A stretch of 64,000 nt of DNA from Spirochaetota bacterium (GTDB taxonomy: Bacteria; Spirochaetota; UBA4802; UB4802): NCBI GenBank assembly GCA_040756435.1, contig JBFLZD010000004.1:1-64000 (forward strand), in the 5' to 3' direction. The position numbers and the translations under genes are program-made. A model generated the notes under the pieces. The model was not told where the DNA came from and did no database searches. It was given only the letters and a program-made list of their open reading frames with translations. Positions within the stretch are counted from its first letter, which is position 1. Each line of letters opens with the position of its first letter. Of the stretch, positions 6,435 through 63,341 are shown piece after piece.

Positions 6435-7067
6435 ATGAGCGACGACATTATAAACGAAGATATTGAATTGGAATCTAATCGCAAGGACAGCCTTGATGAT
6501 GAAGCGGGCAATGAAGAGCTATTTGAAATGGGCGATAGTGACGATCTCTTTGGTATAGTAGAGGCTATACTTTTCGTATCAGCTGAACCTGTCCCATTGC
6601 AGTTTTTTACCAAACAGTTAGGTATAGATGCTACCCAGGCAAAAATTATCATTGATTCTCTTATAGATGAATATGAAGACCGTGATAAAGGAATAAAAAT
6701 TATTGAGATATCTGGCGGGTATCAGTTTGTTACCAATCCAAAATTTGCAAACCAGTTGCGTCAGGCAATGGGATATAAGAAAAAAGAAACATTGTCTAAA
6801 GGGATGCTGGAAACATTAGCTATCATTGCCTACAAACAGCCAATAATGCTTGCAGAGATTGAAGAACTTAGGGGTGTATCATCACGAATGATGGTTGCAG
6901 CACTTATGCGTAAAAATCTTATAAAGCCTGTTGGCAGAAAAGATGTTCCCGGAAGGCCATTATTATATGGTACAACCGATGAGTTTTTACGCTATTTTGG
7001 ATTAAACAAACTATCTGACCTGCCCAAGCTATCAGAAATAAAAGAATTTAACTTTGAAGAGGAATAA
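6435..7067 (+). CDS. scpB: Segregation and condensation protein B
   Basis: ScpB forms paired winged-helix domains that bind ScpA in the SMC complex. The 210-residue product has a short acidic N-terminal extension (~35 residues) and then the two winged helices, with family-typical 'AILFVSAEPVPL', 'LAIIAYKQPIMLAEIEELRGV' and 'GRPLLYGTTDEFLRYFGL'. It lies between scpA and pheA; the pheA start follows its stop by one base. An ACTATCGC-family octamer (6532-6539) lies inside the gene. Confidence 0.93.
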   Translation: MSDDIINEDIELESNRKDSLDDEAGNEELFEMGDSDDLFGIVEAILFVSAEPVPLQFFTKQLGIDATQAKIIIDSLIDEYEDRDKGIKIIEISGGYQFVTNPKFANQLRQAMGYKKKETLSKGMLETLAIIAYKQPIMLAEIEELRGVSSRMMVAALMRKNLIKPVGRKDVPGRPLLYGTTDEFLRYFGLNKLSDLPKLSEIKEFNFEEE

Positions 7068-7068
7068 T

Positions 7069-8115
7069 ATGGATACTGCCAATTTTGAAAAAAACATAAT
7101 TGAATCGTTATCTCAGTTAACGGAACTATACAGCAAAGAGTTACAGAACATTATAAAAGAAGGTGAGCAGGGAATTTTTCCAGTTAAAGCAAAAATAATA
7201 TCGCATCTGCAGCAATATGCTCGACCACCACTTACCCCTGAGTTAATAGAAAAAATTGCAACAGAAATATTTTCTGTGGCTCTTTCAGCGGCGCGCCCTC
7301 TTAAGGTTGCATATTTAGGTCCGGTGGGGACGTTTACCCATATTGCTCTGCTGGAAATTTTTGGTGATGTTATAGAGGCTCTACCGCATAGGACTATTTC
7401 GGATGTATTTGATGAAGTTGAGACAGGGAGAGCAACATTTGGTGTAGTCCCAATTGAAAACAGTACCGAAGGTGCGGTAACCTATACTATGGATGAATTT
7501 CTTGATACTGATTTAAAAATTGTATCTGAAAAGTCGCTCAGGATTACCTATAGCCTGCTATCAGTATGTGACAGTATTGAAAAGATTAAAAAAATATATT
7601 CACATCCGCAATCGCTTGCTCAATGTAAAAACTGGCTTAAAGCAAATTTACCCAATGTTGAAATAAATCAGGTTAATTCAACTGCTAAAGCTGCTGAAAC
7701 TGCATCATGGGATAAATACTCAGCCGCTATCGCTTCAAATATTTCAGCTAAAATATATAATCTTAACATCATTGCTGATGGTATTGAAGATTCACGTCAA
7801 AATTATACACGGTTTTTAGTTTTAGGGAAGCATGATAATCCTCCCACAGGTAATGACAAAACATCAATAGTGTGTGCTGTGAAAGATCAGCCTGGTGCGC
7901 TGTACAAGCTTTTAAAACCGTTTAGTGAACATGGTATTAATATGACCATGATTGAGTCACGCCCCGATAAGAAGAAGATGTGGGCATATAACTTTTTTAT
8001 TGATTTTAATGGGCATAGAACTGACCCTGTTGTCCAGAAGGCGCTGGAGGCCATGAAACAGGAAACCATATTCTTAAAGGTTCTGGGATCATATCAGGCT
8101 GAAAAACATGATTAA
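7069..8115 (+). CDS. pheA: Prephenate dehydratase with N-terminal chorismate-mutase-like region and ACT domain
   Basis: Converts prephenate to phenylpyruvate in phenylalanine synthesis. After an ~80-residue helical N-terminus in the position of a chorismate mutase domain (weakly conserved), the dehydratase domain is clear: 'YLGPVGTFTH', 'VPIENSTEGAV' and the 'NYTRF' motif with its catalytic Thr-Arg-Phe. A C-terminal ACT domain carries 'GALYKLLKPF' and 'ESRP', the phenylalanine-binding motifs that normally give feedback inhibition. The ATG at 7069 is chosen because GAGGAA precedes it; an in-frame ATG at 7054 would lie inside scpB and lacks such a site. The product is 348 residues. Confidence 0.92.
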   Translation: MDTANFEKNIIESLSQLTELYSKELQNIIKEGEQGIFPVKAKIISHLQQYARPPLTPELIEKIATEIFSVALSAARPLKVAYLGPVGTFTHIALLEIFGDVIEALPHRTISDVFDEVETGRATFGVVPIENSTEGAVTYTMDEFLDTDLKIVSEKSLRITYSLLSVCDSIEKIKKIYSHPQSLAQCKNWLKANLPNVEINQVNSTAKAAETASWDKYSAAIASNISAKIYNLNIIADGIEDSRQNYTRFLVLGKHDNPPTGNDKTSIVCAVKDQPGALYKLLKPFSEHGINMTMIESRPDKKKMWAYNFFIDFNGHRTDPVVQKALEAMKQETIFLKVLGSYQAEKHD

Positions 8116-8146
8116 AGATTTAACATAAAAAAGGAGCACAGTAAGT

Positions 8147-10711: not shown

Positions 10712-10781
10712 ATACATAGTAACTATCGCATATAAAAATTTTTATTTTTAGATATACCTGTGAATAATTGCTAAAATAAAA

Positions 10782-10810: not shown

Positions 10811-10842
10811 GTATTAACGTTATGACAACAAGGTGAAGTGGT

Positions 10843-14660: not shown

Positions 14661-15112
14661 GATTTGAGCTATCACATAAAAAGATCAGGATCCGTGTAGC
14701 TGGCCTGGTTGTTGAAGATAACAAAATATTGATGATAGCTCATAAAAAAGGAAGTGAAGTCTACTGGTTGTTGCCTGGCGGAGGTGTTGAGTATCAGGAA
14801 TCACTTGATGAGGCACTCAAAAGGGAGTTTCTTGAAGAATTGGGACTTACAGTAGAAGTTGGTGATATTGCATTGATAGCAGATTCAATAGAACCTAACG
14901 GGAAACGTCATATTATTAATATTGTATTCTGGTGTTATCTGATGAATAAGTCAATACGTTTGGGTGATGAAAAAATTTTATATGATTTCAGTTTCAAGCC
15001 TGTCAGTGAATTAACTGATGTAGTTATGTACCCGCCACTTAATGAGTATATTATTCAATTGTTAAAGAATAAAAACGAACGAATATATAAAGGTTCACTG
15101 TGGATCCCATAA
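14657..15112 (+). CDS. Nudix hydrolase
   Basis: A 151-residue Nudix protein with a complete Nudix box: 'GGGVEYQESLDEALKREFLE' continuing into 'ELGL', matching Gx5Ex7REUxEExGU. These enzymes hydrolyse nucleoside diphosphates linked to other groups; the substrate cannot be read from the sequence. It overlaps rnc by 4 bp and aroB by 13 bp, so all three are co-translated. Confidence 0.85.
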   Translation: MRFELSHKKIRIRVAGLVVEDNKILMIAHKKGSEVYWLLPGGGVEYQESLDEALKREFLEELGLTVEVGDIALIADSIEPNGKRHIINIVFWCYLMNKSIRLGDEKILYDFSFKPVSELTDVVMYPPLNEYIIQLLKNKNERIYKGSLWIP

Positions 15113-16194
15113 CAAATAGTAATGCTATCGTTTTACAGTTAGAATCAAAGAAATCCACAATAATAATTGGCCGGGGAATACTGGCTTCATTATCTTTGCT
15201 GATACCCTATAAAAAGTGGGATGTCATTGTTGCAATCATAAGTGATACGGTATATACATTACATAAAGATGTTATGGATAACAGCCTGGCATTAATTGAT
15301 GCTATTTCAATACAGTATAATGACAGCGAACAAAATAAATCATACGCATACGCCGAAAGATATTTCAACCAATTGCTTGAGAACCAGTGCACTCGAAATT
15401 CTATGCTTCTAGGAATAGGTGGTGGTGTTACTACTGATTTCACAGGTTACCTTGCGTCGGCATATATGCGCGGTATAGATGTAGTGTATATTCCCACAAC
15501 ACTTCTGGCGATGGTAGATGCTAGTATTGGCGGCAAAGTGGCAGTGAATATTAGAGCAGGCAAAAACATCGTTGGTCATTTCCATCAGCCTGATTATATT
15601 CTTATTGATATAAATTTTTTACATACTTTGCCCAAAAATGAATGGCGTTGTGGTATGTCAGAGGTTGTAAAGCATGCATTAATTGGCGATAGTTCATCAT
15701 TACCATTATTGCTGAATAAAGAAATACAATATGGTCATATTGACGATTCATTATATACCTGTATTTATAGTTCAGTGCGATTCAAAGCTTCTATAGTTGA
15801 GAAGGATGAATTTGAAAAAAACATAAGAGCAATTTTAAATTTTGGACATACCGTTGGGCATGCTATAGAATCTCTGCTTGAATATACAGTAAGCCATGGT
15901 GATGCCGTTGCTGCTGGTATGTTGATTGAATCGTATATATCCATGAAAGAGGGCATGCCAAAAGCTGATTTTGATTGTATCAGAGATATTATATCTGCAT
16001 ATAACCTGTTGCCCAATTTTTCATTTGACCCTTCCAAGATAGTTAATCACATGATGTATGACAAAAAAAATGTAAAAGGCAAAACACGCTTTGTTCTTCT
16101 GGAATCAATTGGGAAACCGCGGATTGGTTGTGAAGTAAATGATGCACTGGTTATGGAAGCATTAAACTTTTATTTAAAAATGGTTAGTAAATAA
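15100..16194 (+). CDS. aroB: 3-dehydroquinate synthase
   Basis: Second step of the shikimate pathway, an NAD- and metal-dependent cyclisation of DAHP. The 364-residue protein has 'GIGGGVTTDFTGYLASAYMRG', 'IPTTLLAMVDASIGGKVAVN', and the metal-ligand region 'EVVKHALI' with 'LNFGHTVGHAIE'. The start is GTG (15100) inside the end of the Nudix gene, 6 bp after AAAGG. aroB is separated from aroF/tyrA/pheA by about 5 kb in the same direction. Confidence 0.93.
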   Translation: MDPITNSNAIVLQLESKKSTIIIGRGILASLSLLIPYKKWDVIVAIISDTVYTLHKDVMDNSLALIDAISIQYNDSEQNKSYAYAERYFNQLLENQCTRNSMLLGIGGGVTTDFTGYLASAYMRGIDVVYIPTTLLAMVDASIGGKVAVNIRAGKNIVGHFHQPDYILIDINFLHTLPKNEWRCGMSEVVKHALIGDSSSLPLLLNKEIQYGHIDDSLYTCIYSSVRFKASIVEKDEFEKNIRAILNFGHTVGHAIESLLEYTVSHGDAVAAGMLIESYISMKEGMPKADFDCIRDIISAYNLLPNFSFDPSKIVNHMMYDKKNVKGKTRFVLLESIGKPRIGCEVNDALVMEALNFYLKMVSK

Positions 16195-18193: not shown

Positions 18194-19697
18194 GGGTTGC
18201 TGGTACGTCCTTTTGTTCTTCCTTGGGTTGTGGTTGAACGGTTACAGGAGTTTCGCGTTGCTTTTGAACTTCTATGTAGATGGGTTTTAGCAATTTGTCT
18301 TCCTTAACTTTATTAATGAAATTTGTATTGTAATAGTTGCTGGACACTATCTCTTTAACTTTTGAGGTATCATTGATAAAAGCGTAGCATTTGCAAAGAA
18401 TAAGCAAATCACTATCTTGTAGCCTGAATTTATTAAAATGAACTATCGCCTCATTGTATTGAGCAAGCATATAGAGGGAGCGTGCATAATTTAACGATAA
18501 AGATTCATCGCGGAGGTTTTCAGGAACAATGGTGGTAAGTTCTACTACCTTGGAATATTGCTTTGTTGAGTAATAATGCTGAGCTGTTATAATGAAGGCT
18601 TTAATATATTTGGCGGGGATTTCCTTCTGCTTTTGTCGGTATTGCATGTATACTTTTTCAAAATATTCATATGCTTTGTTGTCATTTTTGTTGTAAAAGA
18701 CAAGACCTAACTGATACAGTATTTCCGGGTTGTTGGAATCAATTTTATATGCTGACTGCAACGTTTGCAGGGCACCATCATAATCATTCTTTTGCATCTG
18801 AATGGCTGATAGCAATAAATACGGTGAAAGGTTGCCTTTTTTTGTAGATATAGCCTGCTGTAAAAAAGTTTCAGCTTTAGTATACTGGCCAATATTATAA
18901 TATGCAGTAGCAACTTTAAGCTGGCTGGAATATTTTATATCCTTATCAATAAACGCATATTCCAATGCCGCCTCAAATGCTGTTGCAGCTTCACTATAGC
19001 GTTTTTCCTGAAAATATATGTCACCAACAAGCAACTGGAGTTCACCGTAAAAAGGTATGCGGTATAAAATCTGATTAAAATTAGACAGGGCATCACGGTA
19101 CTGGTTTTGCGTGTAATAATACATGCCTATTTCAAATACCGGGGAAAGAAAGGAGCTATCAAGTATAATTGCCTGTCTGAAATGCTGTAATGCTAACGAA
19201 TAATCCTTTGATTTGCTATTAAGCCCTTCCTCATATTCTTTTTTTGCTTCTTCATTTTCGGTCCACATGAGTTTGTTAATCAAATTTTCCGCTTTGGTTT
19301 TTGCTGATGCTTCCCCCAACACCTCATAAAAATATTTGCAGGTTTTAATGGTTTTTGGAAAATCGGATCTGGATTCATAGATGACAATAAGGTTCCAGTA
19401 TGCTAAATTTCGGTATTTTGGCGTCATCTTGCGTTCAACTGCCTTTTCAAAATATTCAAGAGCAGTTGTAAGATTTCCATTGTTTTTCTCAATTTCACCA
19501 ACAAAGTAATAGGAATCGCCTCGGTCAGTTGCTTCAATATCCTTTAAAAAATTTTCTTTTGCTTTTTCCCAATTTTTATGGACATAATAGCGACATCCAG
19601 CTTCATAGTAGCTGTTAGCGTATGCAGGTGTAGCAAATGCAATCATTACGGGTAACAAAATGCAGAAAAATATGGCATATACAAAAGGATGTTTCAT
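18159..19697 (-). CDS. Secreted TPR-repeat protein, first gene of an ABC operon
   Basis: A 512-residue protein with a signal peptide (about 1-27, ending 'ATPAYA') and roughly ten tetratricopeptide units, for example 'AYYNIGQYTKAETFLQQAIS', 'SAIQMQKNDYDGALQTLQSA' and 'ILYQLGLVFYNKNDNKAYEY'. The C-terminus is a Pro/Gln/Glu-rich tail. It should lie in the periplasm or on the outer membrane. TPR proteins scaffold protein complexes; here its 3' end overlaps the permease gene by 35 bp, so it may stand in for, or recruit, a substrate-binding component. That role is speculation. An ACTATCGC octamer lies at 18442-18449. Confidence 0.75.
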   Translation of the reverse strand: MKHPFVYAIFFCILLPVMIAFATPAYANSYYEAGCRYYVHKNWEKAKENFLKDIEATDRGDSYYFVGEIEKNNGNLTTALEYFEKAVERKMTPKYRNLAYWNLIVIYESRSDFPKTIKTCKYFYEVLGEASAKTKAENLINKLMWTENEEAKKEYEEGLNSKSKDYSLALQHFRQAIILDSSFLSPVFEIGMYYYTQNQYRDALSNFNQILYRIPFYGELQLLVGDIYFQEKRYSEAATAFEAALEYAFIDKDIKYSSQLKVATAYYNIGQYTKAETFLQQAISTKKGNLSPYLLLSAIQMQKNDYDGALQTLQSAYKIDSNNPEILYQLGLVFYNKNDNKAYEYFEKVYMQYRQKQKEIPAKYIKAFIITAQHYYSTKQYSKVVELTTIVPENLRDESLSLNYARSLYMLAQYNEAIVHFNKFRLQDSDLLILCKCYAFINDTSKVKEIVSSNYYNTNFINKVKEDKLLKPIYIEVQKQRETPVTVQPQPKEEQKDVPATHENTTEPIYPQ

Positions 19698-19864: not shown

Positions 19865-21373
19865 ATGAACTCAGTCAGATCAACCACACATATTGCAATA
19901 GCAACGGCGTTAAGCAGAATATTAGGCTTTGTACGGGATATGGTTATCGCATGGATGTTTGGTGCGTCCTGGCAGATTGATGCATTCTTTGTTGCATTCA
20001 GGATTCCTAATCTGGTACGAAGACTGGTTGCTGAAGGGACATTATCATTGCCCCTGGTGTCCGTTATTATGAACTATCGCCACAAAGAAGAAAGAAAAAA
20101 AATAGCTAAGGAACTATCTTCATTATACATTGTGGCAGGGTTTCTTGTATCTGTTACAGGTATTGTTGCAGCGCCTGCCATTGCAAAAATTCTTGGTTTT
20201 GGATTTACTGCAAAAGTGTATAGTCTTTCTGTAGTGCTGCTACGCATCATGTTCATCTATTGCCTGTGTGCAAGCTTTGTTGCATATGCCATGGGTGTGC
20301 TAAACACTGAAGGGGTTTTCTTCATGCCTGCATTATCGCCACTATTGCTTAATGTGGGTATTATTCTTTTTTGTTTTATTGCATATCAGTATTCCAGTGT
20401 CATGTGGCTGGCAGCAGGTGTTGTGGCAGGTGGCATTATGCAATGCATGGTTGTTCTTATTCCATTATATAAAACTGGTGTGCGCCTGACTTTTGGTCAT
20501 ATACAGACAGTACACGCAAAAGTGCTGCGTATGATTGTAACCTCAGTGATGGGCGTTGCTGTATATCATATTAATGTGCTGGTTAACACCATGATGGCAT
20601 CAACGCTCAAGCAGGGTAGTGTTAGCTACCTGTATTATGCTGACAGGTTCATTGAGATAGTGAGTGGTGTGTTTATCATTTCAATGAGCAATGCGTTTCA
20701 TCCTGAGGTTTCACGGTTGTGGGCTATCAGGGATGCTGCACGCCTGCAGGCAACAATTACATCAATGCTACAGGCATCACTGTTTATTGCACTTCCTGCC
20801 AGTGTTGGTCTTATTGCAACGGGGAAGGTTATACTGGCAACATTCTTTGAGCATGGAAATTTCTATAGTTTTGAAACAGTCATGACGAATCAGGCGCTTG
20901 CATGTGCGGCTGTTGGTATCCCTGCGTTTGCGGTGGTTCGTATTCTTATGCCACTTTTTATTAGTATGAGGGCATCTGCATTTATTAATGCAATTTCAAC
21001 AGTTGCAATTGTTCTGAATGGGGTGCTTGGCTTTGTACTTATGCACACACGCCTTTTGCATGGAGGACTGGCACTTGCTAACAGCATTTCATTATATGGT
21101 GTGGCGATAGCTCTTGTGATAAGACTTTTGCATTCAATGAAGGTAAAAGTGGATAAAAAGCTTACTGTTACTTTGCTGCAGTATTGCATTGCTTCTGGAA
21201 TAATGGGGTTTTTACTGTATGTACTACAATCATTTTTCCCGTATGAGAAAGGTGTTGTATATACATTTGTGCTTGTTACACTGGGGATTGTGCTGTATGC
21301 TCTACTATGTAAAATTTTAAATCCTGATATGACATTACGTACAGTGATAGATGCTATTCGGAAAGATAGGTAA
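19865..21373 (+). CDS. murJ: Lipid II flippase MurJ
   Basis: Moves the lipid-linked peptidoglycan precursor across the inner membrane. The 502-residue protein has the MurJ/MviN N-terminal signature: 'LSRILGFVRDMVIAWMFG' followed by 'DAFFVAFRIPNLVRRLVAEG'. It has about 13-14 membrane segments. It is transcribed divergently from the TPR/ABC operon and converges with the transglutaminase gene, overlapping its 3' end by 20 bp. No Shine-Dalgarno is obvious before the ATG. Confidence 0.93.
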   Translation: MNSVRSTTHIAIATALSRILGFVRDMVIAWMFGASWQIDAFFVAFRIPNLVRRLVAEGTLSLPLVSVIMNYRHKEERKKIAKELSSLYIVAGFLVSVTGIVAAPAIAKILGFGFTAKVYSLSVVLLRIMFIYCLCASFVAYAMGVLNTEGVFFMPALSPLLLNVGIILFCFIAYQYSSVMWLAAGVVAGGIMQCMVVLIPLYKTGVRLTFGHIQTVHAKVLRMIVTSVMGVAVYHINVLVNTMMASTLKQGSVSYLYYADRFIEIVSGVFIISMSNAFHPEVSRLWAIRDAARLQATITSMLQASLFIALPASVGLIATGKVILATFFEHGNFYSFETVMTNQALACAAVGIPAFAVVRILMPLFISMRASAFINAISTVAIVLNGVLGFVLMHTRLLHGGLALANSISLYGVAIALVIRLLHSMKVKVDKKLTVTLLQYCIASGIMGFLLYVLQSFFPYEKGVVYTFVLVTLGIVLYALLCKILNPDMTLRTVIDAIRKDR

Positions 21374-24700: not shown

Positions 24701-24879
24701 AGGTACCTCACAGTAATATACATCAATGTAACACTCTATTTGTCAAGATTCTAATGGAAATTATAAAAAAGCAAAGAAAATATTAATTGGGGCGATAGTT
24801 ACTGTTAAGGATAGTGTTGATACTACAATGACTTAATCCCTTCAGGAATTAAACAACAATTGGTTTTATATTAATTTTT

Positions 24880-26595: not shown

Positions 26596-27630
26596 TTATT
26601 TTATGATAAATGAAGATAATTTTTTGGGAGCATTACCTATCAGATAGTAGCGTGTTAATGCATTATGCATGATGGTTGCAATTAACTGCTGATATGATAT
26701 GTTAACTTTAGAGCATATTATTGGGAGGTCGGAGTGTGTGGGGTGAAGCCCAGCAAGGGGGTTTACTTCAAGAAAATGTGGATTGCCGGAACTATCGCAC
26801 TTAATGTCCACCCGCCCTGCATCACGGCAGCCTAATGCTTTCCATGCCTCAAGTGCAACATGGGCTGACTTTTGTGCTGCGGTATCATCTACAAGCCTGT
26901 ATTCCACACGTTCTTCACATCGTTCCTTATTGATGAAGGAATACACATCCTTTTCGGCATTATCCAGTAAAATGATTTCTATAGTTCCGATAGCTTTAGC
27001 AGTATTGCCGCTACCAACTATCCCCACAGTAAATTCTCTTCCGGGGAGGTATTCTTCTACCAGAACTGGCTGTTTATACTTTTCAAGCAATAGTATACAG
27101 GTTGATTCAAGCTCACCGGCATCACGGATAACTGAAGCAGCAGTAATGCCTTTTCCGGTTCCCTCAGCGTATGGTTTTGCAAATAATGGGTAGGTAAGGG
27201 AACAGCGTTTTATGTCTTCAATACCGGTAACAAGCACAAATGGGGGTGTGGGGATATTACTGTCGCGTACTATCTGTTTTGTCATGGCTTTGTTCAAGGT
27301 AAGTGCCAGCACCAGTGGATCGGAAAAGGTGTAGGGTATGGCGTATGCATCCAGCAGTGCGGGGATCTGGGCTTCACGGCCAATACCGTGCATTCCTTCA
27401 GCTATATTGAATACTATATCCCAGCGTTGACCACTGGCAAGGCGTGAAACAAGATGTTTGATGTGGCCAATTCTTTCAGTGGTAAAACCTAATTGCTGCA
27501 GCGTGGTATCAATAGCATTAATAGTTTCTATACTATCAAATTCCGCAATAGTTTCATCATCATAACCCATTGCCCGGTAATCGTCGCGTAAGTCATAGGT
27601 AATGCCAACACGCATGGCTTTGCTGATCAT
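26596..27630 (-). CDS. ATP-grasp ligase, D-Ala-D-Ala ligase-like (first of two)
   Basis: A 344-residue ATP-grasp protein with 'FNIAEGMHGIGREAQIPALLDAYAIPYTFSD' character (short pieces 'FNIAEGMHGIGREAQ', 'PYTFSDPLVLALTLNK'), the grasp segment 'VEEYLPGREFTVGIVG', and the metal-binding 'GRVDIKCD' and 'LEVNPLAGLHPTHSDLP'. A genuine Ddl is encoded elsewhere in the window (50231), so this protein and its paralogue probably serve another pathway. Its start overlaps the kamA stop in an ATGA, so the two are translationally coupled. Confidence 0.82.
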   Translation of the reverse strand: MISKAMRVGITYDLRDDYRAMGYDDETIAEFDSIETINAIDTTLQQLGFTTERIGHIKHLVSRLASGQRWDIVFNIAEGMHGIGREAQIPALLDAYAIPYTFSDPLVLALTLNKAMTKQIVRDSNIPTPPFVLVTGIEDIKRCSLTYPLFAKPYAEGTGKGITAASVIRDAGELESTCILLLEKYKQPVLVEEYLPGREFTVGIVGSGNTAKAIGTIEIILLDNAEKDVYSFINKERCEERVEYRLVDDTAAQKSAHVALEAWKALGCRDAGRVDIKCDSSGNPHFLEVNPLAGLHPTHSDLPIICSKVNISYQQLIATIMHNALTRYYLIGNAPKKLSSFIIK

Positions 27631-29571: not shown

Positions 29572-30891
29572 ATGATAAAACCTGTTGTGCTGGATTTTGA
29601 GTATAAAGTACAAAATACGCACCATATGAAAAATAATGAGCCAGAGCTATCATTTAGTTCTCTATTGAAGGACACAATGCAAAAAGGGAGTGAGGCTGCG
29701 GATATTACATACAACCAGACAGTTGATTCAATGCACTATGTTACCGATGGTGCAACCATGCAGGTAAAAGAAAATAAAGAAAAGAAATATGATAGAGCAC
29801 AGGATGAATCAAAACATATAGAAAGAACACCTGCTCACAGGCGGAATGAACAAAATAATGACGTGTATGTGGAAAAAGATGTAATGCAATCATTAGCAGG
29901 TTCTTCATTCCATTCAAATAATAAGGCGATAGTTACTGATAAAAATGCCCTTACTGTAAAACAAAGAATTTACAAAAAAGACGCATTCTATGCTTTTAAA
30001 CTCCCTACAGTAAACAATAATAAAGATCAAAAACTTTTTGCAAACGCAATTATTGCGAAGAAGTCAGAGAAAGAGACGCTTCATGATACCATTAATCAAT
30101 TACAAAAGATTGTCGATGGGCAAAATCATGCACGGGATGTGCGAAAGAGTGACCTCAAACAGCTGATAGCTCAGCTTACTACAATGCAACAAATGGATAA
30201 GAAAGATTTACACAAACTGGTACTGAATCCAGTGATTCACTATAATGAACTATCGGACAATAAAAATAAAAAAATGGTACGTAAAAGCGGTAATGATATG
30301 CAGCTGCACTATGCTGACCACAAAACTACAAAAACAGTAAAAAATAGTGAAACCGCTCTTCTTGATGCAGTGAAGCAGAAAGGGAAGATAGAAGATAGCC
30401 CAAAACTTGACAAAAAAGGACAGGCAACTGAGCGCCATGACTCATTTATTCAGGTAAATGCAAAGCACAATTCCAATACCGCTACTTTTGCCAAACCTGT
30501 GGTGCAGGAACAGCTGATGCAGCTTTTAAACAAAGCTAAAGTAATGCAGGAAGGTGATAAAACTAGTCTTTCATTAAAATTGTATCCTGAAAGTTTAGGT
30601 AAACTTTCTGTAAACTTAGGGCTTGAACATGGTATTTTAAGTGGCCGCTTTGTTGTTGAAAGCCATGAGGCAAAAGAGCTGCTATTACAGCAACTGGAAT
30701 CAATTCGCTGGGAGCTAGAACACAATGGTGTGCAGGTAGGTGAGTTTGAAGTAAATGTTAAAGAGCATCGTCAGCGTGAATTTACTGAAATGCAAGGATT
30801 ATCACATAAACAAACTATTGAAAATGCTGAATATGAAGTGACAAGCAACCGATATATATACCATGATGGATTACTGGACGTTATAATATAA
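29572..30891 (+). CDS. fliK: Flagellar hook-length control protein, FliK-like
   Basis: FliK measures hook length and switches export from hook to filament substrates. The 439-residue protein has a long, charged, poorly conserved N-terminal part and a C-terminal Flg_hook domain: 'LSLKLYPESLGKLSVNLGLE' then 'HNGVQVGEFEVNVKE'. This architecture and the position directly before flgD and flgE support the assignment. The octamer lies at 29926-29933. It ends 10 bp before flgD. Confidence 0.82.
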   Translation: MIKPVVLDFEYKVQNTHHMKNNEPELSFSSLLKDTMQKGSEAADITYNQTVDSMHYVTDGATMQVKENKEKKYDRAQDESKHIERTPAHRRNEQNNDVYVEKDVMQSLAGSSFHSNNKAIVTDKNALTVKQRIYKKDAFYAFKLPTVNNNKDQKLFANAIIAKKSEKETLHDTINQLQKIVDGQNHARDVRKSDLKQLIAQLTTMQQMDKKDLHKLVLNPVIHYNELSDNKNKKMVRKSGNDMQLHYADHKTTKTVKNSETALLDAVKQKGKIEDSPKLDKKGQATERHDSFIQVNAKHNSNTATFAKPVVQEQLMQLLNKAKVMQEGDKTSLSLKLYPESLGKLSVNLGLEHGILSGRFVVESHEAKELLLQQLESIRWELEHNGVQVGEFEVNVKEHRQREFTEMQGLSHKQTIENAEYEVTSNRYIYHDGLLDVII

Positions 30892-40205: not shown

Positions 40206-41618
40206 TTATGCCTCCTTACTGTAATTTCTTTTTGTTATACCTAAGATATCCTCAAAGTAGCGTATACTATCAAACACAGCTATCTGCACATGGATATCAT
40301 CTAACAGTTTTTTAAGCAAAGGAATCTTTGATAATGGTTTGGTAAGTGGCATGTACATTCTCATGGTAACTATCGCTTTGCGTATAATATGTAACATCTT
40401 TTTTACTTCCTCTTCATTTATGGTGATGGGAACCATGAAGCGCATTACCTGCGGTTGATTGCCTGAGTATACGGCAAAGATGCCATGCCGTGCCAGTGAA
40501 TCGGCCATAAGTGCCCCCATGTATTCATGAGTATATTCAACGCCAATCATAAGGCCCCTGCCACGAATTTCTTTTATGATGTCAGGATTTTCATGCTGAA
40601 TGGAAAGCAGTCCTTCCATAATAATTTTACCCATTGATGCTGCGTTTTCCCACAGGCGGTTTTTAACAACATAGTCAATCACTGCAATACCAACAGCACA
40701 CCCAATATCACTTCCGCCGGTTATTGACTGGTGAAATTCCGGATTGCTTTTGACATACTGTGTAAGAAGCGGAATGTTGCGATACATTACCACAGCATTA
40801 GGAAAAAGCCCGCCGCTAATTGATTTGGCAAGCGTCATGATATCGGGTACCACGCCACTATGCTGGCTTGCAAACATCCTGCCGGTACGCCCAAAACCTG
40901 TTTGAATTTCATCAAAGATGAGCATGATGCCAAAATGGTTGCATATAGTTCGTAAGCCTTTCAAATAATAATCATCACCCACAAAGATACCACCTTCACC
41001 CTGAACGGGTTCAAGGATAATAGCAGCAGTATCAATACCAGCAACCTGTTTGACCTGCTCTAAGTCACCAAACTGGACAAAGACAAAATTGGGCTCTAAT
41101 GGTTCAAAAAGGTGGCGATAGTAATCTTTACCATTGGCTGACAGTGAATATCCGGTATGGCCATGATATGCTTTTTTCATTGCAATGATTTTCTTTCTTC
41201 CCGTTGCACCACGAGCTAACTTTATTGCACAATCGATTGCATCACCTCCACCAGAAGCAAAAATAACCTGATTGCAATCGCCTGGAGCAATTGAAGCTAA
41301 TTTTTTTATAAATTCTTTTTTAACGTTTGATGGTAAAAGGTTTGTGCCAATATCATATATTTGGAGTGCTTCCCGTAATGCTTTGATAATCTCAGGATTT
41401 CCTCTTCCCACATTGAAGCAGCCGGCTGATGTGAAGCAGTCAATGATCTTTCGCCCAAATAGTCCGTCAGTAAAACCAATACCTTTACGGCGAGTTTCAA
41501 TAAAATCTAAATGTGCCGCACGCATTGTTTTGGTTTGCCCTTTAGAAATGTGCCGTGAAAATAGGGAAAAGATGAGTTTTTTATCATTATCGGTGAGAGT
41601 ATCTTTCCATAAAGCCAT
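40206..41618 (-). CDS. Class III PLP-dependent aminotransferase
   Basis: A 470-residue aminotransferase with the full set of class III features: 'FASGGGDAIDCAIKLARG', 'YHGHTGYS', 'LEPVQGEGGIF', 'IFDEIQTGFGRTG' (D236) and the Schiff-base lysine K265 in 'TLAKSISGG'. Relatives use omega-amino acids, ornithine, acetylornithine or 4-aminobutyrate; the substrate cannot be fixed here. It is divergent from a TetR regulator, with a TetR-type operator (41641-41657) just before its start. Confidence 0.88.
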   Translation of the reverse strand: MALWKDTLTDNDKKLIFSLFSRHISKGQTKTMRAAHLDFIETRRKGIGFTDGLFGRKIIDCFTSAGCFNVGRGNPEIIKALREALQIYDIGTNLLPSNVKKEFIKKLASIAPGDCNQVIFASGGGDAIDCAIKLARGATGRKKIIAMKKAYHGHTGYSLSANGKDYYRHLFEPLEPNFVFVQFGDLEQVKQVAGIDTAAIILEPVQGEGGIFVGDDYYLKGLRTICNHFGIMLIFDEIQTGFGRTGRMFASQHSGVVPDIMTLAKSISGGLFPNAVVMYRNIPLLTQYVKSNPEFHQSITGGSDIGCAVGIAVIDYVVKNRLWENAASMGKIIMEGLLSIQHENPDIIKEIRGRGLMIGVEYTHEYMGALMADSLARHGIFAVYSGNQPQVMRFMVPITINEEEVKKMLHIIRKAIVTMRMYMPLTKPLSKIPLLKKLLDDIHVQIAVFDSIRYFEDILGITKRNYSKEA

Positions 41619-42425: not shown

Positions 42426-43430
42426 TTAAAGCTTAACCTGTTTTTTGTGTACCGAAGCTGTTTGCAAGCTATTTGCATATGCAGCCGTCAATGATACAAT
42501 ATTCGTTATATTGATTGCCCCTCTTCGGGCAAGTTGTAATAAAATTTGAGTACCTTTCTTTTCATTGCCATTGAGATGTACTAACATAATACTGCCAGCC
42601 ACAGGCTTTTTGCCCTTTGCAAGCCATGCATCTGAACCTAACGGAATAAGCCCGTATCCCATTACCTTTTCATATATTGTTTGGTTGGAGATAAGTCCCG
42701 GAAATCTAAAAAATACAGAAGGGATAATATCGTGTTCCAGCATGCAGATCTCGTTCTGGAAAACTTCGCGTGCCACACTGGTATCTTCTTTCAGCATAAA
42801 GTTTTTCCGCAGCGGAAGTTTTCGCGAATAAAAATGAGTAAAGCTGTGATTTGCCCAGGTGATGTCAAGCTTATGATCTGAAGCTAAACTTTGTAACCAC
42901 CTAAGATCTTCTGGATGGGTGAGTATCCATTTTCCGCTGATACATATTGTAACGGGTAAAGGGGAAATTTTGTTCAGAGCAATCAGCTGTTCAATGAACT
43001 CAGCATCAATGGAGCGTTTTGATGGACACAGGTCAAAGCTTAAAATCATCCCCTGTGTATCAACATGGGTTATGCCTGCGTTAAACATACGTTTAGATTT
43101 TTGCAATGCTTTTTGATACAATTGTGCATATGGTGTATCAGCACATTGTTGAATAATAGTGTGAAAAGAATTTTGCTGTATGATGCCTTTAGGGTTTTTA
43201 AGTATGCCCGTGCGCAATGTATATGGATGTATATACAGGTAAGCCTGTATGGAATTATATTTAAATCTTCGTATAATTATATAACGGGTAGTTTTGTTTT
43301 GCAATTCAGTATAGAGAGCATAATACGGCATATATGCACTAATTTTGGGATATGATTGTTCGATAGTTACCGGAAAGATAATTATTGCCAGCATACAATA
43401 CATGCTATGTTTATAAAGCCATTGTTTCAT
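42426..43430 (-). CDS. Polysaccharide deacetylase-like protein, exported
   Basis: A 334-residue NodB-homology protein with an N-terminal hydrophobic signal/anchor (about 8-24). The catalytic motifs are altered but recognisable: motif 1 is 'LSFDLCPS' (normally tFDDGP), motif 2 'HSFTHFYS' keeps the HxxxH metal ligands, and motif 3 is 'FFRFPG'. The second Asp of motif 1 is Leu, so metal binding may differ. It probably acts on a cell-envelope or secreted polysaccharide. Confidence 0.7.
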   Translation of the reverse strand: MKQWLYKHSMYCMLAIIIFPVTIEQSYPKISAYMPYYALYTELQNKTTRYIIIRRFKYNSIQAYLYIHPYTLRTGILKNPKGIIQQNSFHTIIQQCADTPYAQLYQKALQKSKRMFNAGITHVDTQGMILSFDLCPSKRSIDAEFIEQLIALNKISPLPVTICISGKWILTHPEDLRWLQSLASDHKLDITWANHSFTHFYSRKLPLRKNFMLKEDTSVAREVFQNEICMLEHDIIPSVFFRFPGLISNQTIYEKVMGYGLIPLGSDAWLAKGKKPVAGSIMLVHLNGNEKKGTQILLQLARRGAINITNIVSLTAAYANSLQTASVHKKQVKL

Positions 43431-43616
43431 TGCAAAACCTTACAGTATGTGCGATAGTTACCAAAATCAAACTTCTTTCTATGAAAGGAAGTGAATGGCC
43501 AAAACCTGTGTAAAAGTCAATTAAATAATTTTTTAAAACTCTTTTCACAGGTGCTCACTTTTTGCTCCTAAAAAAATCTCAATATTTTTTCATTCATAGT
43601 CAGATTTTTTAAAAAT

Positions 43617-48654: not shown

Positions 48655-49014
48655 CAGCCACAATCGAGGGCGGGCATCGGTGCCAGCTTTTTTTTAGAAA
48701 TATTTATTGCAATTTAATATTGAAGAATATTTCTCATCATTAGGGGCACCTCTAAAAGGGCTTCCATCATTATAAATGCAATAAAGAAAACAGTTTATCC
48801 TACTATAGTGTGCTCACAAAGGAAGGTTGGGAAAGGTAGTTTTTAAGAAGTTCCCTTGTTTTTAGTAATAAGGGTACAATTCAATTTTTCCTGGTAACTA
48901 TCGCCCATAAAAATTTTACATTATTTTTAAATAATTGATATAATTTTAGTTGCAATTGTACTGGCACTCTTTATATAGCGCACTGAGTATGTAAATCCTT
49001 GATAGAAAGGTTAA
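48655..49014 (+). promoter_or_regulatory. Cassette-free intergenic region with lysC promoter
   Basis: No gene is visible in the first 240 bp, which could be an ORF-less cassette remnant. An octamer (48897-48904) is followed by TTTACA (48915-48920), an 18-bp spacer and TATAAT (48939-48944), a good promoter 70 bp before lysC. Confidence 0.55.
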
Positions 49015-50238: not shown

Positions 50239-51388
50239 AAAGAGTGGTGGCGATAGTTCCGTAAAAAAAGCCGCACGCAGAAAACTTTGCTTAGGCATTA
50301 TCTATGGTGGCAAAAGCGGCGAGCATGACGTTTCGCGCTGTTCAGCAGCTTCGGTGGCACTGGTTGCATCAAAAAAATACACTGTGGTATGCATTGGTAT
50401 TACGCGCCAGGGTCAGTGGTATGTTCAGGATGGCATTAATATACAAACACATCCAGCATTTGGTCAGGTACTATCGCTCAAAGAAACAGGCACGTGGCTT
50501 ATTAATATGCACAGTGCCACTGATACGTTACAACTCTATAATAAAAAAACCGGAAAAACTGTAAACATTGATGTTGTCTTCCCACTGGTACATGGCACGT
50601 ACGGCGAGGATGGCACCTTGCAGGGGTTGCTTGACATGGTTGATGTGCCATACGTTGGCCCGGGTGTGTTGGGCTCAGCTGTGGGTATGGATAAGGATAT
50701 TGCCAAGCGGGTGGTACAAAATTCAGGTTTGGTGGCGATAGTTCCTTTTGAAACAGTTAGAACCGATGATATAAAATCATCTGATACACTGCTGCAAAAG
50801 ATTGCTGCCATGGCACCTGTGTTTGTAAAACCTGCCAATGCTGGTTCATCTGTTGGTATATCTAAGGTGACAACTGTACCTGGCCTGCAAAAAGCCTTAC
50901 AGAAAGCTTTTGCCTTTGACTCAAAGGTAATAGTGGAAAAAGCTGTTGACTGCCGTGAATTTGAGGTTGCAGTTATGGGTAATGAAAAACCGCTTGCTTC
51001 AGCAGTGGGTGAGGTTATCCCGCAGCATGAGTACTATTCGTATGAGGCCAAATATGTTGACAAAGATGGTGCAAAGCTTGCCATACCAGCAAACATTCCT
51101 GATGCACTGGCACTGAAGTTACGACAGGCAGCATGTTCTGTGTATACAATGCTTGAATGCCAGGGAATGGCGCGCGTGGATTTTTTTGTCGATAAGCATG
51201 ATGGGACAATCTACTTTAATGAAGTCAATACATTGCCCGGGTTTACCAGCATAAGCATGTATCCAAAGCTATGGGAATATTCTGGAGTATCATACCCCAA
51301 ACTTATAGATACACTCATTTCGTATGCACTCAGGCGCCATCGTGAAAAGAAGAAGATGGTGAAGGCCTTCCTTGCATTGAAGAAATAA
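50231..51388 (+). CDS. ddl: D-alanine-D-alanine ligase
   Basis: Makes the D-Ala-D-Ala dipeptide for peptidoglycan. The 385-residue protein has the Ddl signature '[16 protein letters not shown]', '[16 protein letters not shown]', '[15 protein letters not shown]', 'ARVDFFV' and '[19 protein letters not shown]'. The ATG at 50231 overlaps the lysC stop; a TTG at 50222 is possible. Three copies of the octamer lie in this gene (50250, 50470, 50735), the densest in the window. Confidence 0.95.
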
Positions 51389-51407: not shown

Positions 51408-52088
51408 ATGAACTATCGCCAGGAAAATACAACAGTAAAAAGCTGTGAGGCAATTCTTTTTGATATGGATGGTGTAGTTGCTGATTCCATGCATGCACAT
51501 GCACAGTGCTGGATTGATGTATTTAAAGAACATGGTGTTCATCTGGATAAAACAGATATTTTTAAGCGTGAAGGCATGACCGGGCTGGAATCAATAGCTG
51601 ATATTTTCCTTGATAAAGGGTTTGTCATGCCACCTGAACATATACTGAAAGATTTACAAAAGAAAAAATTACAATTGTTTTCAAACTATCAGATTGAAGT
51701 GTATCCGCAAATGTTTTCTATTTTTCCCCTGGTAAAGTCAAAAGGGAAAAAGATTGGGATAGTGACCGGGTCATTCCGCTATCTTGTTTTTGAGCTTATT
51801 CCTCAGGAACTAATGCACTATGTTGATGTGGTCATCAGTGTTGATGATGTCAAAAAAGGAAAACCCAACCCTGACCCATATATAGAGGCAGTTAAAAAGT
51901 TACAGGTAAATCCCGAACATGTCATTGTGGTGGAAAATGCACCTATGGGCATAAAAGCTGCAAAAGCTGCGGGCTTGTTCTGTATTGCTATACGTACTAC
52001 ACTGGACGCGGGGTTTCTTACAGAAGCTGATGTCATAATGCAGGATCATAATGAATTAGCTGCATACTTCAAGCATTGTCTGTCATGA
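51408..52088 (+). CDS. HAD-superfamily hydrolase, beta-phosphoglucomutase-like
   Basis: A 226-residue haloacid-dehalogenase-type phosphatase: 'FDMDGVVADS' (motif I with nucleophile Asp), 'IVTGSFRYL' (motif II), 'KGKPNPDPY' (motif III) and 'VVENAPMGIKAAKAAGL' (motif IV). The cap domain suggests a sugar phosphate or similar small substrate. The first codons, ATGAACTATCGC, contain the octamer. Confidence 0.82.
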   Translation: MNYRQENTTVKSCEAILFDMDGVVADSMHAHAQCWIDVFKEHGVHLDKTDIFKREGMTGLESIADIFLDKGFVMPPEHILKDLQKKKLQLFSNYQIEVYPQMFSIFPLVKSKGKKIGIVTGSFRYLVFELIPQELMHYVDVVISVDDVKKGKPNPDPYIEAVKKLQVNPEHVIVVENAPMGIKAAKAAGLFCIAIRTTLDAGFLTEADVIMQDHNELAAYFKHCLS

Positions 52089-56935: not shown

Positions 56936-57008
56936 ACTATCGCAACAAAATTATTCTTTTGACAAGAAAATTATTATAAAAATACTGTGGTTTTTAAGGG
57001 GCGATAGT
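56936..57008. repeat. Inverted pair of the ACTATCGC octamer
   Basis: ACTATCGC (56936-56943) and GCGATAGT (57001-57008) face each other with 57 bp between, in the divergent gap between the glycosyltransferase and the HgdB-like gene. The second copy lies between an AAGGGG ribosome-binding site and the ATG at 57013. Confidence 0.7.
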
Positions 57009-60391: not shown

Positions 60392-61819
60392 ATGGCAGTA
60401 AAAACCGTTAGTCAGTTAGCCCAGATGCTTGAACGGGGAGAAACCACATCTTTAGAAATAGTAACACAGTACCTCACGGCAATTGATAAACACAAAGAGG
60501 TAAATGCATATATCACTGTAACACATGACACAGCCTTACAGCAGGCTAAAGAATCAGACAGGCGCCGTAAAGAAGGAAAGCCAAAATCAAAATATGATGG
60601 AATTCCCATTGCAATTAAAGATAATATATGCACAAAAGGGGTACTGACTACTTGCGCTTCAGGAATTTTGCAAAATTTTATACCACCGTATAATGCCACT
60701 GCATATCAAAAGCTGCTTGATGCCGGGTTTATTCTTTTAGGAAAAACCAATTTAGATGAATTTGCCATGGGTTCCACTACTGAAACATCGTTTTTTGGCC
60801 CAACTAAAAATCCTGTTGACACAACAAAGGTCCCAGGTGGTAGCAGCGGTGGTTCGGCTGCAGCGGTGGCGGCTGATATTGCGCCGGTAGCACTTGGTTC
60901 TGACACCGGTGGTTCCATACGCCAGCCGGCTTCTTTCTGTGGTGTGGTGGGGATAAAACCAACCTATGGCCGGGTGTCACGGTATGGGCTGGTGGCATTT
61001 GCATCATCACTTGATCAGATTGGTACCTTTGCTCACACGGTGAAAGATGCAGCCAGTGTACTTGCAGTCATTGCAGGTGTGGATGCGCGTGATGCAACTT
61101 CTATTGATAAACCGGTGGATTTTGGTTCAGAAACTATCGCCGGGAATGTGAAAGGATTGCGCATTGGTGTTCCCCAGGAATATTTTAATGGCGTAGATGC
61201 GGCGATAGTAACCGCAGTCAAAGATGTAGTAAAAAAATTGGAATCACAGGGAGCAGTTATTCGCGAGATTTCTCTGCAATACACGGACTATGCTGTTCCC
61301 ATTTACTATCTCATAGCAACTGCAGAGGCTTCATCAAATTTAGCACGGTATGACGGTGTGCGCTACGGCTATCGCTCAAAAAATATACAGAAGCTCAAAG
61401 ACCTGTATGTGAAGACGCGCCAGGAAGGTTTTGGCAAAGAGGTCAAGCGACGCATCATCTTAGGGACATTTGCCTTAAGTTCGGGCTACTATGATGCCTA
61501 CTATCTCAAAGCATTGAAAGGCAGGCGCCTTATCATAGATGATTTTACCAAAGCATTTAGCCAGTGTGACTGCATTGTTGCTCCGGTAACAACCACAACA
61601 GCTTTTGGTATAGGCGAAAAGATTTCTGATCCGCTGTCACTGTACATGGCCGATATCCTTACCATACAGGCTAACTTAGCAGGCATACCAGCAATGTCGG
61701 TGCCTGTTGCAAAGGATGCACAAGGTCTTCCTATAGGTGTGCAGATTATGGCAAAACATTTCAATGAAAAGGTGATGTGTAATGTGGCACAGGCTATTGA
61801 GGATTGTGTTACACTGTAG
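60392..61819 (+). CDS. gatA: Glutamyl-tRNA(Gln) amidotransferase subunit A
   Basis: The amidase subunit that releases ammonia from glutamine so that GatB can convert Glu-tRNA(Gln) to Gln-tRNA(Gln). 475 residues with the amidase-signature triad K76 ('PIAIKDN'), S151 ('PGGSSGGSAAA') and S175 ('GSDTGGSIRQP'), at the spacings of known GatA. gatB and gatC are not in the window. An inverted pair of octamers lies inside the gene (61133 and 61202). It overlaps the next gene by 38 bp. Confidence 0.95.
   Translation: MAVKTVSQLAQMLERGETTSLEIVTQYLTAIDKHKEVNAYITVTHDTALQQAKESDRRRKEGKPKSKYDGIPIAIKDNICTKGVLTTCASGILQNFIPPYNATAYQKLLDAGFILLGKTNLDEFAMGSTTETSFFGPTKNPVDTTKVPGGSSGGSAAAVAADIAPVALGSDTGGSIRQPASFCGVVGIKPTYGRVSRYGLVAFASSLDQIGTFAHTVKDAASVLAVIAGVDARDATSIDKPVDFGSETIAGNVKGLRIGVPQEYFNGVDAAIVTAVKDVVKKLESQGAVIREISLQYTDYAVPIYYLIATAEASSNLARYDGVRYGYRSKNIQKLKDLYVKTRQEGFGKEVKRRIILGTFALSSGYYDAYYLKALKGRRLIIDDFTKAFSQCDCIVAPVTTTTAFGIGEKISDPLSLYMADILTIQANLAGIPAMSVPVAKDAQGLPIGVQIMAKHFNEKVMCNVAQAIEDCVTL
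61133..61209. repeat. Inverted pair of the ACTATCGC octamer inside gatA
   Basis: ACTATCGC (61133-61140) and GCGATAGT (61202-61209), 61 bp apart, are in the same inverted layout as the pair at 56936/57001, but here within coding sequence and in different reading frames. Confidence 0.7.
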
Positions 61820-62213
61820 TGTAGTTTTTTGTTTCAGCGCCTGTGGTTACCAGTATGAAACAATACGATGTGTCAGGACTGTAACAGTGCCACATAACGA
61901 TAGCCAGGCAATAACCGTACAGGTGAATTTTACTGCCTATGTAGCATACATACACAATACCAGTGACAGTGCGCGTGCCAACAATGATGCTGTTAGACGT
62001 TTATCAAAAGGTGATGTAGAAGGTGCTCTGACGCTGTTACAAACTACGCTTCCTACCAGTGAGCCAGCGGTACTTAATAATTATGGTATTACATTAATTC
62101 TTAAAGGTGACTTTGATAAAGGCTATGAGTATATTTATAAAGCGGTAGTACTACAACCGCACGATCCCTATTTTAGGAAAAATTACCTGTACCTGCATGA
62201 ACTTAAAAAATAA
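61782..62213 (+). CDS. Small TPR lipoprotein
   Basis: A 143-residue protein whose signal peptide ends in a lipobox ('VVFCFSACGY', Cys21). About two TPR units follow ('RRLSKGDVEGALTLLQTTLP', 'GITLILKGDFDKGYEYIYKA'). The start lies inside the end of gatA after AAAGGTGATG. Function unknown; it overlaps the next lipoprotein gene by 17 bp. Confidence 0.7.
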   Translation: MWHRLLRIVLHCSVVFCFSACGYQYETIRCVRTVTVPHNDSQAITVQVNFTAYVAYIHNTSDSARANNDAVRRLSKGDVEGALTLLQTTLPTSEPAVLNNYGITLILKGDFDKGYEYIYKAVVLQPHDPYFRKNYLYLHELKK

Positions 62214-62691
62214 ATGCATATTAATTTTTTGGGCGATAGCACTTGCAACTGGTTGCCTGCAAGAACCGGTAGATGAAGAATACTATAATGACCTTGCAAA
62301 AGTTAAAGGTGGCCAGAAGCCAACACCACCGGTTGATATAACAATGACAATTAATAATCATGTAATTACTCTTTCATTTTATACTGATAAGATGGATAAT
62401 GGACAATTACGCACATTTGATCCAGATACTGGTAGCAATGAAAATTTATATTATTTAGTCTATATATCAGGAACAAATCCGGCACAGTTTGGCGACCCAA
62501 AGTTGTATTACGATATCAAGTATTACGTGGGCTACGTTGCTGAGTCTGACTTTGAACCTGGTCTTGATCCAAAGAGCGTTACTATACAGGTTTCATCGTC
62601 ATATCATGGACCGGTGTATCTGTGGATGACGTCCCATGATGGTGGCAGGGAAAGTGATCATACGGAAGTACTAAATGATATAATCCCGTAA
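62197..62691 (+). CDS. Lipoprotein of unknown function
   Basis: A 164-residue protein with a signal peptide and lipobox 'ALATGC' (Cys20), then a beta-rich, Tyr-rich body ('LYYLVYISGTNPAQFGDPKL', 'VTIQVSSSYHGPVYLWMTSH'). The pattern hints at a fibronectin-III/immunoglobulin-like fold. I do not recognise a family. Confidence 0.65.
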   Translation: MNLKNKCILIFWAIALATGCLQEPVDEEYYNDLAKVKGGQKPTPPVDITMTINNHVITLSFYTDKMDNGQLRTFDPDTGSNENLYYLVYISGTNPAQFGDPKLYYDIKYYVGYVAESDFEPGLDPKSVTIQVSSSYHGPVYLWMTSHDGGRESDHTEVLNDIIP

Positions 62692-62780
62692 CATCGTACT
62701 ATGTGTAGCAGCGTACACTACGGGCAATACCTTGGTACAGTATACCAGCAGTGATTGTTAATGAGCAATGGATTGATACT

Positions 62781-63341
62781 ATGAACTATCGCACAGTATT
62801 ATTAATTATTTTTTTTATTTTTTGTGTACAGGCATCATTTGCACAGCAACCGTTTACTTTTGTAAAAACGGACGAACCGCTCTCTTTATGGAAAGCACTG
62901 GCGTATGATGTAGTGCCGGGTGGTGGTCATATCTATACGGGACACTACGAATATGCTGCGGTTTTTGCCGGGTTAAAAATTTCAGGTGTGTATGCCATGT
63001 ATTACTATTACAATTACTGGCACTATCGTGGCTCACTGTATCGTTCGGCTAAAAGGGCAAATGAAATAATAGATCCCCAACATGATTTGCTTTTTAAGGA
63101 CCCGGAAGGTGGCTATAAAACAGTAAAAGAATTTGGGTATGCATATGATAGGGCAGCCCATTATTTTACCTTGAGTATTATAGCAAATGCTGCTATATAT
63201 ATTACATCCTGGCTTTTTACATGGTACCATGTTCAGGAAATAAATGAAAGCAGGCAGCCAACATACATAGGCTTTAATCAGTTTTCATTCACAACTGATG
63301 AAAATGGAACACTGTGGGCTGCCTGTACCATGAGGTGGTAA
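62781..63341 (+). CDS. Secreted/membrane protein of unknown function (DUF5683-like layout)
   Basis: A 186-residue protein with a clear signal peptide ('MNYRTVLLIIFFIFCVQASF' then A). After it comes 'SLWKALAYDVVPGGGHIYTG', a Gly-rich motif seen in small membrane proteins of the DUF5683 kind ('...PG.GQ.Y.G'), and then two further hydrophobic segments. The ATG at 62781 carries the octamer in its first codons; a GTG at 62751 would spoil the signal peptide. It is directly followed by moaA. Confidence 0.65.
   Translation: MNYRTVLLIIFFIFCVQASFAQQPFTFVKTDEPLSLWKALAYDVVPGGGHIYTGHYEYAAVFAGLKISGVYAMYYYYNYWHYRGSLYRSAKRANEIIDPQHDLLFKDPEGGYKTVKEFGYAYDRAAHYFTLSIIANAAIYITSWLFTWYHVQEINESRQPTYIGFNQFSFTTDENGTLWAACTMRW

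Follow-up and report, generated by a model that had tools for sequence, protein, structure and literature searches.

DNA uptake sequences (DUSs) and uptake signal sequences (USSs) were stated in 2025 to be known from the Neisseriaceae and Pasteurellaceae only (PMC12616744). The USS of Pasteurellaceae has a 9-bp core that occurs in hundreds to thousands of copies and is joined by weaker AT-rich flanks to give an element of ~32 bp, of which two types follow phylogeny (PMC12616744). The DUS of Neisseriaceae reaches thousands of copies, is conserved within species, and forms dialects that follow phylogeny (PMC3630211). In this report, we describe the octamer ACTATCGC, which is iterated throughout the genome of an uncultured member of the Spirochaetota (assembly GCA_040756435.1, hereafter G000) and was noticed in a 64-kb window comprising bases 1-64000 of contig 4. 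We give a probability of roughly one half to the reading that ACTATCGC serves as a DNA uptake-type self-recognition sequence, in which case it would be read by a DNA receptor and would function in uptake.

An octamer selected as DNA throughout the genome

The G000 assembly comprises 3.61 Mb in 126 contigs and is 99.65% complete. Its detailed analysis covers approximately one-third of the genome (1.26 Mb, with some counts made on 858 kb), and genes were called as simple open reading frames (ORFs). Comparisons were made with four congeners (G001-G004), such that the genus is represented by five members, and with 93 genomes from outside the genus. Nearly all of these genomes are fragmented draft assemblies.

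The window carries 23 exact copies of ACTATCGC, 12 on the plus strand and 11 on the minus strand, each at the position and in the orientation given by the original prediction, which was made from the letters of the window alone. Dinucleotide shuffles of the window yield 1.03 +/- 0.92 copies (maximum 3); the original estimate from base composition was one or two. The whole of G000 contains 1,327 copies (669 + 658 by strand), or approximately one per 2.7 kb, whereas the reversed octamer, used as a control, has 106 (47 + 59). When 8-mers are ranked by third-order Markov z-score in 858 kb, ACTATCGC is first, with 291 copies observed and 18.3 expected. A fourth-order (5-mer) model for 1.26 Mb, in which the motif's own 5-mers are already counted, predicts 59 copies where 453 are observed. 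Moreover, the 1,680 permutations of its letters average 18.9 copies in 858 kb, and the runner-up, TATCGCCA with 117, overlaps the motif. Over-representation therefore withstands the third- and fourth-order Markov backgrounds and the shuffled octamers, which come close to the tests that had been proposed for it, and chance or composition was rejected as its origin on the strength of the shuffles, the reversed control, the permutations and the Markov models. As is expected of an uptake sequence, ACTATCGC is a short, non-palindromic word, the most over-represented octamer in the 858 kb, and present in more than 1,000 copies on both strands.

The copies are spread in near-Poisson fashion, with 322 per Mb in coding and 416 per Mb in intergenic DNA. 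Approximately 85% reside within genes, which is near the coding fraction, and both gene orientations are used. Within the window, ORFs contain 17 of the 23 copies, which fall in several reading frames and in either orientation, and the other six lie between ORFs; occurrence in genes in different frames and between genes had been noted at the outset. When codons are shuffled synonymously within each of 1,051 ORFs, ~37 copies are obtained (maximum 46 in 20 trials), whereas 380 are observed, and this roughly tenfold coding excess holds in all five stop-free frames. The earlier proposal of selection at the level of DNA and not of protein is thus upheld, and an origin in the encoded proteins, for instance in a common peptide, is ruled out by the synonymous shuffling and the use of all frames. 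Like an uptake sequence, the word occurs in both coding and non-coding DNA and acts as DNA. Two further candidate origins were rejected. Remnants of a mobile or interspersed repeat, of the repetitive extragenic palindrome (REP) or miniature inverted-repeat transposable element (MITE) kind, do not fit flanks that are compositional rather than shared in sequence, nor copies that lie mostly in genes and in all open frames. Transcription terminators were dismissed since inverted pairs of ACTATCGC are not enriched.

A check for bias relative to replication, which had also been suggested, gave a negative answer. Judged by GC skew, the ratio of leading- to lagging-strand copies is 142:122 in G000, 57:56 in G003 and 34:39 in G004. 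This result bears on the proposal that ACTATCGC is a Chi-like recombination hotspot, or an oriented motif of the FtsK orienting polar sequence (KOPS) type, recognised by a translocase that moves along DNA. Chi, too, is an octamer iterated at a comparable order of density, and it need not be tied to genes. However, Chi and KOPS-type sequences are normally strand-biased, and the long duplex flank signature described below likewise speaks against such a role, which we consider improbable. Assignment of the word to Chi or KOPS was rejected for want of this orientation bias.

Extended signature, dialects and conservation in the genus

The octamer is the core part of a longer signature, asymmetric and ~35 bp in length, which can be written roughly as R5-N-T5-N2-C-R-G-K-A-ACTATCGC-C-C-A-N-A/W6. 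Relative to 46,000 control octamers made of the same letters, base composition is shifted from position -17 to position +18, with chi2 values of 100-500 at many positions. The upstream flank is purine-rich from -17 to -13 and T-rich from -11 to -7 (T 0.59 at -8). These tracts are followed by C at -4, A or G at -3, G (0.60) at -2, T or G at -1, and A (0.70) at 0. Downstream, C at 9 and 10 and A at 11 precede an A/T-rich stretch with little G that extends to 18. The preference for GTAA, GGAA or TGAA before the octamer and C after it, as originally predicted, is therefore genuine and reaches further than claimed.

Tolerance was evaluated by scoring this flank profile on all one-mismatch octamers of ACTATCGC. 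Octamers that deviate by a G at position 1, a T at position 7, or an A, G or T at position 8 retain strong flanks, which are essentially lost when the mismatch falls within CTATC (positions 2-6). Graded tolerance combined with a long asymmetric footprint looks like recognition by a sizeable DNA-binding protein.

One such protein might be an intracellular chromosome protein (nucleoid-associated, bending or organising) with a ~35-bp footprint, whose sites are spread for structural reasons. The length and asymmetry of the footprint would suit this role, and the upstream T-tract and downstream A-rich stretch form almost a dyad about the core, as for bent DNA. However, the density of sites within genes comes close to that in intergenic DNA, the sites take precedence over codon choice, and a structural role alone would leave the site-poor prophage and restriction-modification regions described below unexplained. 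The genus also carries one HU/IHF-family gene, without an extra paralogue, whereas most relatives have two, and an HU/IHF paralogue was accordingly rejected as the genus-specific reader. We therefore regard a chromosome protein as unlikely. In the survey of this family, one gene was found in each of G000-G005 (the genus and its family neighbour) and two in most other families of the order (G006-G011, G013).

The flanks are equally relevant to the possibility that the octamer, like the cyanobacterial word HIP1 (highly iterated palindrome 1), arises and persists through DNA methylation combined with biased mismatch repair, without a benefit of its own. HIP1 is highly iterated and has alternate forms in some lineages that vary mostly at the ends (PMC4390886), and the ends of ACTATCGC are also its most variable positions. 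On the other hand, HIP words are palindromic, as are the methyltransferases to which they are matched (PMC4390886), whereas ACTATCGC is not a palindrome, and neither a methyltransferase nor a repair enzyme is expected to set composition 17 bases away. Methyltransferases of the N6/N4 families, the only ones counted, range in number from 1 to 9 among the congeners, and no gene among them is evidently constant. A HIP1-like or methylation-site role, which had been offered as an option, is thus a poorer match than an uptake sequence, given a non-palindromic motif whose long asymmetric flanks far exceed a methyltransferase site. We give this explanation little credence, as ACTATCGC does not show the palindrome with a methyltransferase site that marks a HIP1-type word.

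All four congeners carry ACTATCGC, with 651-1,151 copies each, and the flank profile trained on G000 fits the copies in G001-G004, including those of a second dialect. This dialect, AGCTATCGC (the G form), is the main form in G004, where 616 copies are found compared with 10 of a control, and it is present in 150-261 copies in the other members. The most divergent congener by DprA protein identity (69-72%) is G002, yet it uses the A form. The G form is consequently the more probable candidate for the derived one. Outside the genus, ACTATCGC is not enriched in any of the 93 genomes, which include the one family member outside the genus (71% complete) as well as 92 from the order or phylum. Four of the outside genomes were sampled (52-87 kb each), and no comparable replacement word emerged, whereas 80 kb of G000 shows ACTATCGC plainly. 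The nearest matches to the Cpn60 protein of G000 are Spirochaetota metagenome-assembled genomes (MAGs) with 85-88% identity. Three of these neighbours (UBA5368, SKW14 and Seed_metabat.82) are probably not congeners, because the 5.6 kb searched in each holds no copy.

Orthologous positions carry the same message. In an 88-kb alignment with G003 (80% identity), 22 of 33 copies (67%) are unchanged, compared with 19% of control octamers. In a 79-kb alignment with G004, 12 of 16 copies still read [AG]CTATCGC, seven of which have switched to the G dialect, while 14% of controls are unchanged. Conservation in relatives, which had been named as a check, is thereby affirmed, and these alignments indicate that the word is maintained between species, often by dialect switch. 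Lineage-wide occurrence with dialects around an invariant inner core, here CTATC, is again the behaviour of an uptake sequence.

Uptake machinery, site-poor regions and the proposed function

If ACTATCGC is an uptake sequence, its ~35-bp signature would be recognised in double-stranded form by a DNA-binding protein specific to the genus. DNA that bears the signature would preferentially be taken into the cell, entering via ComEC, and would then be handed over by DprA and recombine. Alleles that gain a copy would be transferred more often, and therefore copies would build up throughout the core genome, randomly placed and on either strand, whereas newly acquired DNA would lack them.

The sampled 1.26 Mb of G000 was searched for deserts of this kind. 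The regions were picked for their emptiness, and hence offer a supportive observation rather than a clean test. Of the three strongest deserts, the most pronounced (contig 1, 53-78 kb), with one site where 11.2 are expected, corresponds to a prophage that encodes a head protease, tail sheath, tape-measure and baseplate. A second, at 1-16 kb of contig 18, has no site where 6.8 are expected and makes up a type I restriction-modification island that includes a Fic gene. The remaining one, at 59-74 kb of contig 6, contains ordinary metabolic genes. Low-GC genes are also site-poor, which is partly accounted for by composition. At ~58-74 kb of contig 1 (L091:18049-20000, L092:1-14203), the contractile-tail prophage is followed by a gene for an Mtd-like variable protein and a reverse transcriptase, an arrangement that looks like a diversity-generating retroelement.

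The prophage is also pertinent to the idea that ACTATCGC is a packaging or transfer signal of some other gene-exchange agent, such as a gene transfer agent or a conjugation-like system, and has accumulated by biased transfer. The population-genetic logic would equal that of an uptake sequence, gene transfer agents have precedent among spirochaetes (Brachyspira VSH-1), and G000 has a phage-type tail/head cluster. However, this cluster is itself a ACTATCGC desert, and no VirB4 homologue was found. We consider such an agent highly improbable, and import of the conjugation or ComB type was rejected for the same lack of VirB4.

Among the components that an uptake sequence would require, the inner-membrane channel ComEC and DprA are both present in the genus. 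The two proteins also occur in relatives that lack the motif. Several observations weigh against an uptake function. The G004 MAG yielded no ComEC. No PilT-family retraction ATPase exceeds the cut-off in any of 29 genomes, no ComEA-like match does so in G000, and no system of the VirB4/ComB type was found. The sole secretin, assembly ATPase and pilins belong to one type II secretion cluster, so that the competence machinery of type IV pili (PilT, PilQ and a DNA-receptor pilin) is not recognised. The type II cluster occurs order-wide, and its distribution therefore does not track the motif. In addition, the G002 MAG keeps the motif yet lacks the entire cluster (no secretin, GspE or pseudopilins), which could reflect either a missing contig or a real loss. 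The close inverted pairs that are common for DUS and USS are not enriched, and there is no bias towards gene termini. Finally, to our knowledge, natural transformation is not known for these uncultured organisms.

By NCBIfam models, GspD and GspE of the type II cluster score above curated cut-offs, GspG is clear, and GspF and GspI fall just below. Strong HHH_3 matches in relatives were rejected as ComEA, as they belong to proteins of 710-787 amino acids that are probably Tex.

Among the roles first proposed for the octamer, that of a DNA uptake sequence fits best, given the ~35-bp asymmetry, the dialects, the orthologous conservation, the use of both strands, and the prophage and restriction-modification deserts, while the canonical machinery for uptake was not found. 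Because PilT, ComEA and VirB4 are not recognised, the outer step of uptake, if this is an uptake sequence, must use something unrecognised, for example a type II secretion pseudopilin or an uncharacterised surface protein. At somewhat less than even odds, we further suggest a third, independent origin of uptake sequences, in Spirochaetota without recognisable type IV pili, where a putative unrecognised receptor would act ahead of ComEC and DprA. Even if the reader were something other than a receptor for uptake, there would still be a need to explain a 35-bp signature that is shared across the genus and takes precedence over codon choice at more than 1,000 places.

Features of the window and comparison with known systems

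Table 1. Copies of ACTATCGC and selected variants in the 64-kb window.
Feature	Position	Strand	Context
core ACTATCGC	6532..6539	-	in ORF 6435-7067, opposite strand
core ACTATCGC	10722..10729	+	between ORFs; preceded by GTAA
core ACTATCGC	15686..15693	-	in ORF 15100-16194, opposite strand; preceded by TGAA
core ACTATCGC	18442..18449	+	in ORF 18159-19697, opposite strand
core ACTATCGC	20073..20080	+	in ORF 19865-21373, same strand
core ACTATCGC	24792..24799	-	between ORFs
core ACTATCGC	26791..26798	+	in ORF 26596-27630, opposite strand
core ACTATCGC	29926..29933	-	in ORF 29572-30891 (FliK-like), opposite strand
core ACTATCGC	31353..31360	+	in ORF 30902-31516, same strand
core ACTATCGC	34457..34464	-	in ORF 33453-35147 (amidohydrolase), same strand
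core ACTATCGC	40369..40376	+	in ORF 40206-41618, opposite strand
core ACTATCGC	41115..41122	-	in ORF 40206-41618, same strand
core ACTATCGC	43451..43458	-	between ORFs
core ACTATCGC	48897..48904	+	between ORFs; T-rich 5' side, A-rich 3' side
core ACTATCGC	50250..50257	-	in ORF 50222-51388, opposite strand
core ACTATCGC	50470..50477	+	in ORF 50222-51388, same strand
core ACTATCGC	50735..50742	-	in ORF 50222-51388, opposite strand
core ACTATCGC	51412..51419	+	start of ORF 51408-52088
core ACTATCGC	56936..56943	+	between ORFs
core ACTATCGC	57001..57008	-	between ORFs; inverted relative to copy at 56936, 65 bp away
core ACTATCGC	61133..61140	+	in ORF 60392-61819 (amidase)
core ACTATCGC	61202..61209	-	in ORF 60392-61819 (amidase), opposite strand
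core ACTATCGC	62785..62792	+	in ORF 62751-63341
dialect variant GCTATCGC (main form of congener G004)	21104..21111	-	
dialect variant GCTATCGC	62233..62240	-	
end-position variant ACTATCGA	34319..34326	-	class retaining flank signature
end-position variant ACTATCGA	43360..43367	-	
end-position variant ACTATCGG	30249..30256	+	

The window contains 49 one-mismatch octamers of ACTATCGC in total. Seven had been listed beforehand, six of which are correct to within two bases; the exception is 40073 (CCGAACAT), which does not qualify as a one-mismatch octamer.

Several other features were encountered. An interspersed repeat, TGTCATTGCGAGGAACGAAGTGACGAAGCAATCT, is found in the window at 33054, 33095, 33103, 33283, 35452, 44556, 44664, 44672, 53503, 53511, 53560 and 53571. 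Its word GTCATTGCGA, of which 1.26 Mb contains 79 copies, represents a separate family that is unrelated to ACTATCGC. A hairpin, GTACACCCCCGCCGCC-TTA-GGCGGCGGGGGTGTAC, lies at 24927-24961, and its arm word is present 15 times in 1.26 Mb. A second over-represented word, GGGGTCAGAGC-N-T, has 76 copies in 1.26 Mb of G000, one of them in the window at 34418, and its 9-mer CTCTGACCC is seen 43 times in 858 kb against 1.1 expected. This word possibly corresponds to the ends of a Y1-transposase (REP-type) element. The gene at 793-3858 encodes a CheA histidine kinase (Hpt, P2, dimer, ATPase and CheW domains) with a C-terminal CheC/CheX phosphatase-like domain at residues 887-965, and is thus, as judged from its domains, a kinase-phosphatase fusion.

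Among open-licence papers, a literature search retrieved no mention of the word ACTATCGC itself, nothing comparable reported from spirochaetes, and no description of natural transformation in Spirochaetota. An uptake function, if true, would imply that DNA self-marking arises repeatedly, beyond two proteobacterial families. It would also predict natural transformation in Spirochaetota, thereby giving a handle for the genetics of the group, and the apparent absence of type IV pili would point to a different import route.

Known iterated sequences resemble ACTATCGC to different extents. Chi is likewise an iterated non-palindromic word of octamer scale, but its orientation is biased relative to replication, and that of ACTATCGC is not. 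HIP1 (GCGATCGC) of cyanobacteria is, like ACTATCGC, a highly iterated octamer with lineage-specific alternates (PMC4390886). However, it is palindromic and tied to orphan methyltransferases, and extended asymmetric flanks are not described for it (PMC4390886).

The uptake sequences offer closer parallels. The USS differs in sequence (AAGTGCGGT / ACAAGCGGT), has flanks downstream only, whereas those of ACTATCGC lie on both sides, and belongs to organisms with type IV pilus competence genes, none of which are recognised in the spirochaete genus. Nor does ACTATCGC exhibit a bias towards gene termini or an excess of inverted pairs. The two nevertheless share a short core in great number, weaker AT-rich flanks, an element of similar length, and, in the USS types and the dialects described here, forms that vary among lineages (PMC12616744). 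The DUS is also a different sequence and lacks long AT flanks. Its likeness to ACTATCGC lies in its thousands of copies, its conservation within species, and its dialects, which follow phylogeny and are arranged around an invariant core that is CTG in the DUS and CTATC in the spirochaete word (PMC3630211).

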